A DNA stretch of 40,419 nt from a virus, in IMG/VR virus record IMGVR_UViG_3300013100_000017, positions 1-40,419 of that record. The stretch is one strand, 5' to 3'. Shown piece after piece: positions 3,348 through 20,034 of this stretch. How positions within the stretch are numbered: position 1 is the stretch's first letter; each line of letters begins with the position of its first letter. The notes under the pieces were generated by a model that made no database searches, was not told the DNA's origin, and saw only the letters and a list, made by a program, of their open reading frames with translations. The translations under genes and the position numbers were made by a program.

Positions 3348-3698
3348 ATGAGCACACAGACAAGGGCAGCGGCCCACACCAACACCGCCTACAACAACGA
3401 AGACGTGCGTGTCGGAAAAACCCTCCAGGCACTCATGCAGCGCGAAGAGATCACCCCCGAAGGATGGGTTGTTCTCCGCAAGATCAGCCACGGCGAACTC
3501 GCCGCTGGCATTGTTCTCCCCGGCAAACCGAACGGCATCAACCGTTCCTACATTTCCCAGATCGTCATCGGCGCTAAGCACCTCAACGATGATCTGCTTT
3601 ACGCAATCGCCCGTTACCTCCGACTCGACCCGATGGTCATCAAAGTCCCCGACTCGGTCAAGCAGGCCGAACGCTTCGACCTCGGCCTGGCTGCATGA
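3348..3698 (+). CDS. Cro-like HTH regulator
   Basis: This 116-aa protein is the first gene of the rightward early operon, opposite the repressor. It has a helix-turn-helix-like region at about residues 45-95 (RKISHGELAAGIVLPG, then INRSYISQIVIGAKHLNDD and a LLYAIARYL helix). By position it should be Cro-like and compete for the CTACTAG boxes in the region upstream. The ATG at 3348 is used because it directly follows the predicted promoter and an upstream in-frame start at 3309 would lie inside the operator. Its stop overlaps the next start. Confidence 0.7.
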   Translation: MSTQTRAAAHTNTAYNNEDVRVGKTLQALMQREEITPEGWVVLRKISHGELAAGIVLPGKPNGINRSYISQIVIGAKHLNDDLLYAIARYLRLDPMVIKVPDSVKQAERFDLGLAA

Positions 3699-3922
3699 GC
3701 TTGTTCGACCAGCAGCTTCTGACGGTCCCGGAGCTTGCCGGCTACCTGCGGGTGAGTACAGGCACCGTGTACCGGAACCTCAAACAGTGGCCGCATATCA
3801 GGATCACGGACACGGACGTCAGGTTCAGCGAATCCAACGTCGAAGCGATCCTGGCACTCAAAACCAAAACACCCACACCACCACGGGCCGGACGGTCCAG
3901 AATCCCAAAGGAACGCAAATGA
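3695..3922 (+). CDS. Excisionase-like MerR/AlpA-type HTH protein
   Basis: This 75-aa basic protein has the compact winged-helix pattern of phage excisionases and AlpA-type regulators. LLTVPELAGYLRVSTGTVYRNL is the recognition helix pair and IRITDTDVRFSESNVEAIL is the wing and last helix, followed by a Lys/Arg/Pro-rich tail. It is the best candidate for the recombination directionality factor that works with the integrase at 38543-39664, since no other excisionase is present. ATGA overlaps couple it to both neighbours. It could alternatively be a second early regulator. Confidence 0.72.
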   Translation: MSLFDQQLLTVPELAGYLRVSTGTVYRNLKQWPHIRITDTDVRFSESNVEAILALKTKTPTPPRAGRSRIPKERK

Positions 3923-12338: not shown

Positions 12339-12410
12339 GCCCCGGAAGTGCTGGAAACACTTACCGAGGCCTAACCCTAGAAATCAATGCGACTGATTAG
12401 GAGGGCTGCT
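12339..12410 (+). promoter_or_regulatory. Structured 5' leader of mobile HNH gene
   Basis: A long hairpin spans 12339-12370: GCC...GGC, CGG/CCG and AAGTG/CACTT around a 7-nt loop. A second hairpin pairs CCCT (12375-12378) with AGGG (12402-12405) and AATCA (12382-12386) with TGATT (12394-12398). The ribosome-binding site AGGAGG (12399-12404) is partly paired in it. CAGCCC (12337-12342) could instead pair with GGGCTG (12403-12408), giving a competing fold. Confidence 0.6.
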
Positions 12411-12884
12411 ATGCAGTCTAATCGAACTACCTCCGCCCGCGAAACTCCCTACAGCGAAACCTATCCCGGCGGAAAGCTGCGGGGTACGAGCGTCAGGGAA
12501 CGACTCGCGCTGCGAACTGCGGTTGATGGTGAATGCTGGATCTGGCAGGGAGCCAAGCGCCCCAGCGGGTACGGAGTAATTGGAGTCCACCAGGACGGCA
12601 AGCACACCGTGAAGTCCACACACCGCGTAGCTTACGAGCTGGCGGTAGGCCCGATCCCCGAAGGCCTGCACATCGATCACATTTGCAGCAACAAGGCATG
12701 CGTGCGACCCGAGCACCTGCGCGCCGTACAGCAGCAGGCGAACAACCAGGCCATGTGGGACCGGGGCGAGCGGAAGCGGCAGACTCATTGCAAATGGGGC
12801 CACGAGTTCACCGCCGAAAATACGGCGTTCACGGCTCGCGGTGGACGCCAGTGCAGGGCTTGCAGGACAGGCAAACGCCCCTAA
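12411..12884 (+). CDS. Mobile HNH endonuclease with C-terminal zinc ribbon
   Basis: This 157-aa homing-type HNH_3 nuclease has CWIWQGAKRPSGYGVIGV (about 46-63), HRVAYELAVGPIPEGLHIDH and ICSNKACVRPEHLRAV as the HNH core (about 75-112). A C-terminal HCKWGHEFTAEN...CRACRTGK zinc ribbon follows, common in this group. ATG 12411 is chosen over 12387 because AGGAGG lies just upstream. Its own structured leader and its place between the resolvase and a promoter mark it as a mobile insertion. It probably cuts alleles lacking the insertion, but no intron is seen. Confidence 0.88.
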   Translation: MQSNRTTSARETPYSETYPGGKLRGTSVRERLALRTAVDGECWIWQGAKRPSGYGVIGVHQDGKHTVKSTHRVAYELAVGPIPEGLHIDHICSNKACVRPEHLRAVQQQANNQAMWDRGERKRQTHCKWGHEFTAENTAFTARGGRQCRACRTGKRP

Positions 12885-17057: not shown

Positions 17058-17288
17058 GTGGAGATTGAAGCGAGCCTACTGGTCACTAAGACTATAGCGG
17101 CAGGACTGAAAGCTAACCCCGCGCACGTACAAGAGTGCTTGCGTGAAGCTGAGGCAACCATGAACACGGAAGCCCTCAAACGCAGACGCATCGTCAACGG
17201 CACGCCAAGACTGTATGAGGTACGCAACAGTGCGATCAGCGCCGACCATGTAGAGCTGATGTTCCGCGCACCAACGCGCGCCGTCTAA
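17058..17288 (+). CDS. Small protein before HNH/terminase, unknown
   Basis: This 76-aa protein (VEIEASLLVTKTIAAGLKA, then ALKRRRIVNGTPRLYEVRN) is unrecognised. GTG 17058 has GGGGGAGG directly upstream, though spaced tightly. ATG 17010 would add 16 residues but lacks a site. Its stop overlaps the ATG of the packaging HNH gene. Confidence 0.55.
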   Translation: MEIEASLLVTKTIAAGLKANPAHVQECLREAEATMNTEALKRRRIVNGTPRLYEVRNSAISADHVELMFRAPTRAV

Positions 17289-17611
17289 TGGCAAGGGCTA
17301 AGCGAATCTGCCCTAAGCCTGGCTGCCCACACGTTGCTGATGGGCGCTATTGCTCAACGCATAACGCGGCCTACGAAAAGGAACGCGGGACATCAACAGC
17401 CCGCGGTTACGGATCCGCGCACCAGAAGACACGGGCCCGCATAAACCTGGAAGTGCAGCAAGGGCGAAAGCGCTGCGCACGGTGCAGCGAACTCATCGCA
17501 CCTAATACACCTTGGGCACTTGACCACGACGATCTAGACCGAGGCAAGTACATAGGTCCAAGCCACGTCTTCTGCAACAACTCTGCCGGCGGGCGTAAAG
17601 CGCACCAATAG
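17288..17611 (+). CDS. HNH endonuclease of the packaging module
   Basis: This 107-aa protein has CPKPGCPHVADGRYCSTH as an N-terminal zinc motif and CARCSELIAPNTPWALDHDD with a closing FCNNSAGGRK as the HNH site. Small HNH proteins placed just before TerS are needed for cos-end cleavage with terminase in HK97-like phages, so this one likely works in packaging and is not a mobile gene. The position supports a cos phage. Between it and TerS a second, larger HNH gene is inserted. Confidence 0.85.
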   Translation: MARAKRICPKPGCPHVADGRYCSTHNAAYEKERGTSTARGYGSAHQKTRARINLEVQQGRKRCARCSELIAPNTPWALDHDDLDRGKYIGPSHVFCNNSAGGRKAHQ

Positions 17612-17627
17612 CTGAATACAAAAGAAC

Positions 17628-17702
17628 CTGCGGACTAATTACCCGCAGCGAGTAAGGCCCGGTACCCCAAGTGCCGGGCCTTACGCATTCCTTGGGGGAA
17701 CA
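17628..17702 (+). promoter_or_regulatory. Pseudoknot leader of mobile HNH gene
   Basis: CTGCGG (17628-17633) pairs with CCGCAG (17643-17648). Then GTAAGGCCCGG (17652-17662) pairs with CCGGGCCTTAC (17674-17684). Loop bases CCCCAAG (17665-17671) are perfectly complementary to CTTGGGG (17691-17697), which contains the ribosome-binding site. This is an H-type pseudoknot with an 11-bp stem, a 7-bp stem and loops of 2, 2 and 6 nt. It should block translation of the HNH gene when folded. Confidence 0.65.
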
Positions 17703-18410
17703 ATGAAGACCTGCACCAAAGACAACTGCGACCGCGCACACCGAGCACGAGGGCTATGCGCATCGCACTACAACCAGGAACACGCACCAAATCGCCACGC
17801 AAAGAAGCTAACTGCATGTGCGTTCTGTGGCACTGAAGTGATGAAGAACGCTGGCACTAGCAAGGCAAGGCGCCCTGTCTGTTCGAATGAATGCAGGGCC
17901 AACCTGGTTCGCAAAGATAGCATGGCGGCCAAGCTGACTAAGTCACAGATCGTGGGCCCCGTAAAGCCTCGGCGCATGAAGCCGTATCCAACATGGGATC
18001 GCCAACTGCCAGCAGCTAATCGCACGTTCGTCAACGGTCAGTGTGCATGGTGCGGTGATGGGTTCACTGCTGAGGTGTGGGGCCGAAGCACTGCTCCCCT
18101 CTGCTGCTCTACTGTATGCGCTAAGCGTAGGCAGTGGGCCAACAAGGGACAGACCAGCAACTGGATCGTACCTCGAAGAAGGTACGCCATCTACGAGCGT
18201 GACAACTGGACGTGCCAGCTATGCAGTGGCCCCGTTGATAAGAGCCTGCATGTCAACGACGACTGGGCCGCATCACTGGACCACATCATTCCTCAGTCAC
18301 ACCACATCATCCCAGACCATAGCAGTGACAACCTGCGCCTCGCTCACCGATGGTGCAACGCGGTGCTTGGTGACGGCAAGTACTACAGCGAACATGACCT
18401 AGCCGCATAG
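17703..18410 (+). CDS. Mobile HNH endonuclease, multi-zinc
   Basis: This 235-aa protein begins with CTKDNCDRAHRARGLCASHY, the same C-x4-C...C-x2-H zinc motif as the att-proximal HNH genes. A CAFCGTEVM...CSNEC pair, a CAWCGDGF...CC pair and a C-terminal HNH core with CQLC, ASLDHIIPQSHH and DNLRLAHRWCNA (about 175-225) follow. It sits between the packaging HNH and TerS, a typical homing position. Codon choice is less C-biased than its left neighbours. The start has GGGGGAA upstream, buried in the pseudoknot leader. Confidence 0.87.
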   Translation: MKTCTKDNCDRAHRARGLCASHYNQEHAPNRHAKKLTACAFCGTEVMKNAGTSKARRPVCSNECRANLVRKDSMAAKLTKSQIVGPVKPRRMKPYPTWDRQLPAANRTFVNGQCAWCGDGFTAEVWGRSTAPLCCSTVCAKRRQWANKGQTSNWIVPRRRYAIYERDNWTCQLCSGPVDKSLHVNDDWAASLDHIIPQSHHIIPDHSSDNLRLAHRWCNAVLGDGKYYSEHDLAA

Positions 18411-18530
18411 GGGTAGGCAGTACCACCGAAGGCCCCTCCCCCGCCAGACCGCCGGTGAGGGCTCTAAGAAGTTTTCCAGAATCAAAACCCTTTTGAGAAC
18501 CGTTTTCAACCCCTGATTGGTGGTGTTCCG
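18411..18530 (+). other. Gap before terminase; cos candidate
   Basis: This 120-bp gap holds no gene. Its first half is a GC-rich patch (CCCCTCCCCCGCC near 18434, CCGCCGGTGAGGG) and the rest is T/A-rich (TTTTCC, CCCTTTTGAG). A cos site near TerS is expected for this gene order, but no cleavage site can be named from sequence. Confidence 0.25.
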
Positions 18531-18983
18531 TTGGCGTCTGGTGGTGCTAGAGGAAATGCCGGTCGGGTTGCGGATCCTGCTGCTTTGCGGCGTGAGAGGG
18601 CCGGCGATTCTGCGACGTGGACGGTCCTTACCGCTCCTGAGTTTGAGCCCCCGGAGTTTCCGCTTGATGAGTTGTCGGGCCGTGAGGCGACTATCTGGGC
18701 TCGGCTCTGGAGCAAGCCGCAGGCTACTGAGTGGCTTCGGCTTGGGCTTGAGGATGAGGTTGCGCTGTATGTCCGTTACTTGGCTGAGGCTGAGAAGGCG
18801 GATGCGTCGGGTTCGGTTCGGACTTTGGTGAAGCAGCACCAGGAGCTTTTGGGGTTGTCTACGGCTGGTTTGAATCGTCTTCGTTGGCAGTTGCCGGCGG
18901 GTGATGCTCCGAAGGTTGCGCCTGTTGTTGCCCGGAAGTCTTCGTCTCGTGCCCGGCTAAAGGTTGTGGGGAATGACGGATGA
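18531..18983 (+). CDS. terS: Terminase small subunit
   Basis: This 150-aa protein recognises phage DNA and starts packaging with TerL. It shows the actinophage TerS pattern: ADPAALRRERAGDSATWTVL, then FPLDELSGREATIWARLWSK, LGLEDEVALYVRYLAEAEK, and LVKQHQELLGLSTAGLNRLRW, with a basic C-terminus (RKSSSRARLK). The start is TTG at 18531, after GGTGGTG. It overlaps the TerL start by 11 nt. From this gene on, codons end in T or G far more often than in the left arm, marking a module of different history. Confidence 0.82.
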   Translation: MASGGARGNAGRVADPAALRRERAGDSATWTVLTAPEFEPPEFPLDELSGREATIWARLWSKPQATEWLRLGLEDEVALYVRYLAEAEKADASGSVRTLVKQHQELLGLSTAGLNRLRWQLPAGDAPKVAPVVARKSSSRARLKVVGNDG

Positions 18984-20034
18984 TTTCAGTATCAATTTTC
19001 CGGCTGGTCAGACTCTAGGTTTTCTTGGGGCTGATTGGATCGAGTCGCATTGTTCGGTGCCTGATGGTTTCGATAAGGGGCGCCCGTTTATCCCGTCTGA
19101 TTGGCAGTTGCAGATCATTGCGAATCATTATCGGGTCAAGGGCGCGGCTAAGTGGGTTCCTGAGCGTCCAGTGTTGGCTCCAGCCTTCACGTATCGGCGT
19201 TCTCAGGTTGTGGCGCCGCAGAAGACTGGTAAGGGCCCGCTCGCTGCGGCTGTGACGTTGCTTGAGGCTGCCGGCCCTGTTGTGTTTGGTGGCTGGGCTG
19301 AGGGCGGCGAGGTTTATTCGTGTCACGCGAACGGTTGCGACTGCGACTTCTTCTATGAGTATGAGCCTGGCGATGCGATGGGTATTCCGCGGAATACGTC
19401 GTTGATTCAGCTTGTGGCTACGTCCGAGGAGCAGGTAGACAACGTGTACCGGCCGCTTCAGGCGATGGTTCGCGGTGGGGCCCGGGATTCGATTATGAAG
19501 ACGGGCGAGCAGTTTGTGCGTCTTCCGAATAACGGCAAGATCGAGGCTGTCACGTCTTCGGCGATGTCGCGGCTTGGTAACCCGATCAACTTTGCGAACT
19601 TTGACGAGTCTGGCATTTACACGGTGCAGAACAAGATGGTTCGTGTTGCTCAGACGATGCGTCGTGGTCTGGCTGGTATGGGTGGCCGCTCGATTGAGTG
19701 GACGAACCCTTGGGATCCTGCCGAGAATTCGACGGCTCAACAGACCTACGAGTCTAAGAGCACCGACATTTACCGCTTCTACCGTAAGCCGCCGGCTGAT
19801 CTGTCGTATAAGAACAAGGCTGAGCGGCGACGGATCCACAAGTTCGTGTATGAGGGTTCGCCGTGGGTTGATCTGGATGCTATCGAGGCTGAGGCTGCGG
19901 AGTTGATGGAGACTGACCCGTCGCAGGCTGAGCGTTTTTATGGGAACCGGATTGTGCATGGCCTGGGTTCGTGGCTTCGTGATGGTCTTTGGGATGGTGC
20001 GTATGCCGGAAATGTTGTGGCTGCCGAATCCTGA
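18973..20034 (+). CDS. terL: Terminase large subunit, ATPase part
   Basis: This 353-aa part is the TerL packaging motor. The Walker A-like PQKTGKGPLA is at about 78-87, an adenine-side LVATSEEQVDNVYRPL follows, and the Walker B region is NFDESGIY near 208. The frame stops at TGA 20032-20034, just before the nuclease domain, which continues in the +1 frame. A shift at TCC-TGA (20029-20034) would give one 546-aa protein, the normal TerL length. ATG 18973 is preferred over TTG 18964. Without a shift or a working separate nuclease polypeptide, packaging would fail. Confidence 0.85.
   Translation: MTDDFSINFPAGQTLGFLGADWIESHCSVPDGFDKGRPFIPSDWQLQIIANHYRVKGAAKWVPERPVLAPAFTYRRSQVVAPQKTGKGPLAAAVTLLEAAGPVVFGGWAEGGEVYSCHANGCDCDFFYEYEPGDAMGIPRNTSLIQLVATSEEQVDNVYRPLQAMVRGGARDSIMKTGEQFVRLPNNGKIEAVTSSAMSRLGNPINFANFDESGIYTVQNKMVRVAQTMRRGLAGMGGRSIEWTNPWDPAENSTAQQTYESKSTDIYRFYRKPPADLSYKNKAERRRIHKFVYEGSPWVDLDAIEAEAAELMETDPSQAERFYGNRIVHGLGSWLRDGLWDGAYAGNVVAAES

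Follow-up and report, generated by a model that had tools for sequence, protein, structure and literature searches.

Here we describe an RNA leader that stands directly in front of a mobile HNH endonuclease gene (HNH2) in a window of viral DNA, the window being the whole stretch of 40,419 nt that was analysed. This leader is probably a portable, cis-acting pseudoknot, which masks the Shine-Dalgarno (SD) sequence and keeps the expression of the mobile nuclease low or delayed. Most of what has been learned about the restraint of free-standing homing nucleases against harm to the phage comes from a small number of T-even hairpins, and the family to which this RNA belongs is widespread, lies outside Rfam and is found in many sequenced phages that infect the laboratory host Mycobacterium smegmatis.

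Architecture of the leader in the window

A first-pass annotation of the window had described an H-type pseudoknot at 17652-17702. Direct reading of the sequence bears out the positions of its elements. Stem S1 is formed by 11 perfect pairs between GTAAGGCCCGG (17652-17662) and CCGGGCCTTAC (17674-17684), and the bases CCCCAAG in its loop (17665-17671) are perfectly complementary to CTTGGGG (17691-17697) in the ribosome-binding region of HNH2, whose ATG lies at 17703 and whose SD run GGGGG occupies 17694-17698. The loop lengths of 2, 2 and 6 nt given at that time were also correct, with the refinement that S1 may be lengthened to 13 bp by the possible pairs U17663-G17673 and A17664-U17672, in which case loops 1 and 2 shrink to 0-2 nt; a plain hairpin fold of S1 reaches 14 bp, the extra pair being C-G. 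The minimum free energy of the 71-nt region is -34.4 kcal/mol (z = -3.85). The interval was right for the 3' half of the element and too short for the whole of it, since it left out the covarying hairpin P1 (17628-17648) and the lead-in from 17612, a position immediately 3' of the stop codon of HNH1. The features are the following, all on the + strand.

17288..17611, +, HNH1, upstream HNH gene of 107 aa (ORF; PHROG 1808 HNH endonuclease, E=1.8e-12; homologues in L384-L392)
17607..18423, +, inserted unit of RNA and HNH2, 817 nt, missing at the empty sites of relatives
17612-17702, +, whole RNA element with two hairpins; the S1, loop and ribosome-binding part annotated before is its 3' half
17612..17627, +, lead-in CTGAAYACAAAAGMAYC, single-stranded, conserved in Arthrobacter-type members only (alignment A1 and pattern scan)
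17628..17648, +, hairpin P1, 6-bp stem (17628-17633/17643-17648), with changes on both sides in 5/6 pairs
17634-17642, +, P1 loop ACTAATTAC, 9 nt, conserved
17652..17664, +, S1 5' strand, 11 Watson-Crick pairs plus U-G and A-U, with both-sided changes in 11/13 pairs
17665..17671, +, S1 apical loop and S2 5' strand CCCCAAG, the anti-Shine-Dalgarno arm (direct reading and covariation)
17672..17684, +, S1 3' strand (direct reading and covariation)
17685..17690, +, linker GCATTC, 6 nt in 32/53 copies and conserved in sequence; it crosses S1 in the pseudoknot
17691..17697, +, S2 3' strand CTTGGGG, holding 4/5 SD bases
17703..18410, +, HNH2, 235 aa (scoring 25.4 bits with Pfam PF01844, cut-off 21.4)
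18432..18458, +, probable cos (genome end); the right end of Hestia maps to this place, terminating at CGCCGGTGA
18964..20034, +, terminase large subunit (PHROG 19179, E=2e-166), a gene also present in the empty-site relatives

HNH2 is organised with a Cys-rich, zinc-finger-like module at the N-terminus and the HNH domain at the C-terminus. The window holds another HNH_3 gene (12387-12884; PF13392, E=6.8e-17), which lacks a leader RNA of the HNH2 type. The ORF at 18531-18983, in the position of a small terminase, matches PHROG 226 "minor tail protein", a label that seems doubtful beside the large terminase.

The geometry of the pseudoknot was examined with idealised A-form helices. For an S1 of 12-14 bp the linker would need ~6.8-7.0 nt at 6.5 Å per nucleotide and its usual length is 6; it is therefore tight, and the terminal pair or pairs of S1 or S2 probably open. 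This result of modelling is a caution and no refutation of the pseudoknot. With a duplex energy of about -7.5 to -10.9 kcal/mol, S2 alone might give way to a ribosome that starts translation. Plain S1 has as many as 14 bp and does not need S2 to be stable; the pseudoknot therefore has to build on top of S1.

A covarying RNA family

By blastn, a query spanning both HNH genes found the Arthrobacter phages Phrank15, Persistence, Hestia and Anekin, in which the order HNH1, ~90 nt and HNH2 is placed close to the right genome end, and the spacers present the same architecture with altered helix sequences. Members in IMG/VR were collected by using a gapped pattern derived from the conserved P1 loop and linker. 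A covariance search for the helices upstream of HNH genes in other phages, as the first-pass annotation had advised, was carried out with a model (R1) built on P1 and S1 only; together with further patterns it gave 73 matches, representing 56 distinct sequences. The hosts of the family are Arthrobacter phages, Mycobacterium phages of the cluster-F type and IMG/VR records. Mycobacterium phage Mahavrat, with a cluster-F1 leader at 55055-55131, is a member, and its leader used as a query gave 36 near-complete matches in mycobacteriophage records, a number that includes some phages entered in both GenBank and RefSeq. Among the records that were searched whole there is one full-length copy per record, L344 with two being the exception.

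Searches of other kinds gave little. A blastn search of phages with the 91-nt element alone returned chance matches only, the pattern TCGCATTCCTNNGGAG matched mostly by chance, and the sole match in genome contigs (L119) was false. No genuine match to the element was found in the plasmid collection, and the tRNA/tmRNA search found none. At gathering thresholds Rfam had no match in the entire window or in six members, and a permissive search gave DsrA and F6 only, at chance level. Streptomyces phage SF3 carries an S1-like hairpin, GGAAGGCCCCGACC..GGTCGGGGCCTTCCGCAT (L320, 1501-1544), with convergent genes on either side; it is probably a bidirectional terminator.

Throughout the family P1 has ~6 bp and a 9-nt loop, mainly A or C followed by CTAATTAC, or GCTGATCCC, and is joined to S1 by 2-3 nt of which the last is A. 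S1 has ~13 bp with an invariant G-C as first pair, and its apical loop is of 7-8 nt in most copies. The linker is usually GCATTC, and S2 has 6-11 bp, the end of its 3' strand lying mostly 5-8 nt upstream of the start codon. In all members positions 4-7 of the P1 loop form a 4-nt palindrome (AATT, GATC or AGCT), for which a bound factor is possible; that the loops might serve as palindromes for a kissing dimer is an idea taken from their sequence.

Covariation shows that the predicted helices P1, S1 and S2 are real. In alignment A2 (22 sequences, 26 pairs) both-sided changes occur in 21/26 pairs, 95.8% of the cells are paired and the covariation score is 0.656, compared with 0.209 for shuffled alignments and 0.079-0.121 for slid partners. 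RNAalifold recovers P1 and S1 without a supplied structure. For alignment A3, which comprises the 56 distinct sequences with S2 left out of the fit, the score of P1 and S1 is 0.740, compared with 0.194 when shuffled; by corrected mutual information a pair of S2 ranks 12th on A3, behind 11 pairs of P1 and S1, in an alignment where the register of the loop slips. S2 of at least 6 bp is formed in 53/55 non-redundant copies through 36 distinct helices, and partners of at least 7 bp are found for 87% of cognate combinations, 17% of swapped ones and 2.2% of shuffled downstream sequences. The GGAG half of S2, which is conserved, is less informative because that part of the 3' strand is itself the SD; the other half varies freely and also covaries. 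Furthermore, G-U pairs are present in P1, S1 and S2, and the selected molecule would therefore be the transcript of the HNH-sense strand.

The complementarity between loop and SD, on whose loss in homologues the first-pass annotation had let its claim depend, is kept with compensatory changes (CCCCAAG/CTTGGGG, TCCATAG/CTATGGA, TCCAGAG/CTCTGGA). The pseudoknot proposed at that time thus has the covariation of three helices behind it, and its overlap with the ribosome-binding site also holds, S2 and SD sharing at least 3 nt in 46/51 copies. The overlap is of 2 nt only in L322, L326 and L358, and in L349 S2 lies outside the SD; the copies devoid of S2, L099 and L303, are also without an intact HNH gene.

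A mobile unit with exchangeable nucleases

The alignment with relatives revealed empty sites. In L384, which encodes an HNH1 protein of 83% identity, a block corresponding to 17255-17606 is followed by a gap of 43 nt and by the block 18424-19500; in L386 the aligned blocks stop at 17605 and restart at 18444. The block 18424-19500 is conserved in both. Its beginning, at the right flank of the insert, is the right-genome-end sequence of Hestia (cos) followed by the terminase genes, and contigs L385 and L387 terminate a few bases upstream of the probable cos. The empty sites in L384 and L386 therefore show that RNA and HNH2 act as a single insertion, which arrived as one piece between HNH1 and cos; the mobility of the HNH gene, as annotated before, is upheld by these relatives. 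Cases of decay in L099, L303, L047 and Aubs agree with RNA and HNH2 forming one insertion, as judged by their sequences: the HNH gene of L047 is frameshifted, and in Aubs a single deletion removed S1 and part of HNH2. In Bubbles123 the RNA is retained despite an internal deletion in HNH2.

An HNH or endonuclease VII domain was detected in 44/50 downstream ORFs (E <= 0.01). The six exceptions include L052 and L269, which are cut at the locus end, and L038 and L324, Cys-rich and with no nuclease domain detected; in L362 and in the first copy of L344 S2 is kept and the downstream ORFs are unrelated and non-HNH. That additional copy in L344 (9719-9792), with S2 fully intact before a short non-HNH ORF, may be a case of reuse or a remnant. 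The nuclease families behind the RNA are HNH, HNH_3, HNH_5 and endonuclease VII, the HNH_3 proteins of L034, L092 and L111 carrying an AP2 domain, a feature of homing endonucleases. The RNAs of the window and of L111 are 84% identical and their proteins have no BLASTP match to each other, being PF01844 in one case and HNH_3 with AP2 in the other. Near-identical RNAs before non-homologous nucleases therefore show that the RNA serves whichever nuclease comes next, and that it has been reused with unrelated ones. Upstream neighbours also vary (HNH1, metallophosphoesterase, major head protein, glycosyltransferases, primase), with their stop codon usually 8-20 nt 5' of P1. Many HNH homologues are without such an RNA.

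Several further observations concern the genes themselves. Intact HNH ORFs of 242 or 260 aa stand behind the RNA in Persistence (L002, 3088-3816) and Hestia (L003, 3093-3875), records in which only a short 3' HNH portion is annotated (3601-3816 and 3702-3875, respectively), and several mycobacteriophage records, among them Blexus, Spartacus and Yorick, have no annotated gene across the leader and the start of the gene. In L001, L002 and L004 (3088-3090) and in L111 the 3' strand of S2 is CTATGGA, with an in-frame ATG within the helix. It offers an extra start (MENR.. or MEER..), and the fold could decide the choice of start. HNH2-like genes in L388 (2818-2930), L389 (2007-2100) and L321 (Aminay; 1050-1130) have different leaders without the HNH2-type RNA, in which the SD could sit in the loop of a small hairpin. 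The hairpin of L389, CGACT-GTTGAGG-AGTCG, is present in its minimum-energy fold, and perhaps there are more leaders that structure the SD.

Proposed function and relation to known systems

We propose that the transcript running past the stop codon of the upstream gene would fold P1 and then the long S1 of ~13 bp, whose apical loop would pair with the SD stretch ~6 nt beyond the base of S1 to give an H-type pseudoknot. The SD would thus be locked in S2, usually 5-8 nt upstream of the start codon, and low or delayed translation of the nuclease would be expected from read-through transcripts. As the SD lies in S2 of nearly all copies, it is simplest to suppose that the pseudoknot, as long as it is formed, restrains the translation of HNH2, and we infer translational repression on this ground; the leader suggests that selfish HNH nucleases carry their own translational off-switch. 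S1, which is similar to actinophage terminator hairpins, may in addition lower transcription into the nuclease gene, and the conserved P1 loop would be a candidate sensor or binding site for opening the lock. The literature on the cost of HNH expression is mixed: two HNH genes of the cluster-F1 phage Girr are mildly to moderately toxic when overexpressed and the 3'-terminal one is not (PMC11075535).

A simple damper would not need a conserved P1 loop, and if the RNA senses or binds anything, P1 is the likeliest part to do so. It is possible, if rather doubtful, that the leader is a regulated switch in which the P1 loop senses a signal of the host or of the infection stage and opens the SD pseudoknot, acting as a common portable timer of unrelated nucleases; it would then represent a novel riboswitch class in phages, or an RNA that responds to a factor. 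SD-hiding pseudoknots are the expression platform in several known riboswitches, and a switch sensing a ligand or factor through P1, the AG joint and the GCATTC linker would account for a P1 loop that is near-invariant within two groups (CTAATTAC and GCTGATCCC) on a freely variable stem, and for a linker conserved in sequence and length. However, few bases are invariant beyond the P1 loop, there is no alternative fold, the downstream genes have no common metabolic function and Rfam gives no match, and we consider such a switch unlikely. Control by the HNH protein itself, which had been raised at the outset, can hardly be the general case, since the nucleases encoded behind the RNA come from unrelated families. 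Two further ideas on P1 were set aside: TGAACA..TAATTA as a promoter is not favoured because the surrounding P1 stem covaries with G-U pairs, and pairing of the P1 loop with the 16S 3' end (UGAUCC/GGAUCA, matched by eye) was dropped, as the CTAATTAC loops do not fit.

The remaining explanations assign the main role to something other than the masking of the SD. A role of the RNA chiefly in ending or insulating the transcription of the upstream gene, with S2 being secondary, would agree with the resemblance of S1 to terminator hairpins, with the pair GGAAGGCCCC..GGGGCCTTCCGCAT found without P1 or S2 between convergent genes in Streptomyces phage SF3, and with the short distance from the upstream stop codon; but S1 is followed by GCATTC and not by a U-run, it is absent from the list of the terminator scan, and the covariation of S2 and its fixed spacing to the start codon would be left unexplained, making this reading quite improbable. 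A structured RNA adjoining an HNH gene brings to mind an RNA that acts in trans or as a guide and is bound by the HNH protein, in the style of the IscB omega-RNA (HEARO), as do some downstream proteins with matches to the HNH portion of the models for IscB and Cas9d. These matches reach 18-27 bits against cut-offs of 175-375 (at most 25.5 bits against the IscB-type cut-off of 175) and cover the HNH stretch only, with no RuvC part, whereas the same RNA accompanies unrelated protein families, stops at the SD and has no HEARO match; we rejected an IscB-like guide RNA on the model scores and hold a guide role in general to be very unlikely. Least credible of all, and hardly to be entertained, is a feature of the DNA, either an endonuclease target or a palindromic binding site. 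Inverted repeats beside homing-type nucleases and the 4-nt palindromes of the P1 loops speak for it, yet the arms vary freely with compensation, G-U pairs occur in every helix and no DNA palindrome needs the pseudoknot partner S2.

Returning to the SD-masking leader, several known RNAs may be compared with it. The riboswitches SAM-II and preQ1-II are SD-masking H-type pseudoknots, with the SD in the second helix as in the actinophage RNA, which differs from them by an S1 of ~13 bp, a hairpin in front, highly variable helices and nuclease genes downstream, and which has no known ligand and no Rfam match. HEARO, the omega-RNA of IscB, is likewise a structured RNA directly upstream of an HNH-containing mobile-element gene; in contrast, the actinophage RNA is short, ends at the SD, shows no guide segment, is not accompanied by a RuvC nuclease and does not match the HEARO model of Rfam. 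In T4 gene 32 and E. coli rpsO (S15) an mRNA pseudoknot close to the start codon controls translation (PMC3014915). Those pseudoknots bind their own protein product whereas the actinophage RNA precedes unrelated nucleases, and the one of gene 32 is located ~67 nt upstream and is devoid of the SD, which the actinophage S2 includes (PMC3014915).

The closest functional parallel is provided by T-even phages, where the leaders of I-TevI, segB and Aeh1 mobE bury the ribosome-binding site in hairpins from which late transcripts escape (PMC2988022, PMC3014915). The leaders of I-TevI/II/III, segB and Aeh1 mobE likewise belong to phage mobile nuclease genes with the SD buried in mRNA structure, mobE being also an HNH gene like HNH2. 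They are plain hairpins of the SD region itself, of which the late promoter removes the 5' half, whereas the actinophage RNA is a two-hairpin pseudoknot with an extra conserved hairpin, serves unrelated nuclease families and is far more conserved. None of the Rfam 15 families matches it and we found no description in the mostly open-access literature searched.

The actinophage RNA is a new family of the leader type that masks the ribosome-binding site; its architecture is new, and the portable way in which it accompanies many nuclease families is unusual. That unrelated nucleases have exchanged it suggests that the tolerability of the mobile unit depends in part on the regulatory RNA, no less than on the nuclease. 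The covariation defines the family well enough for the design of single and compensatory mutants, and the leader helps annotation, several such HNH genes having been missed or given a wrong start codon in deposited genomes.
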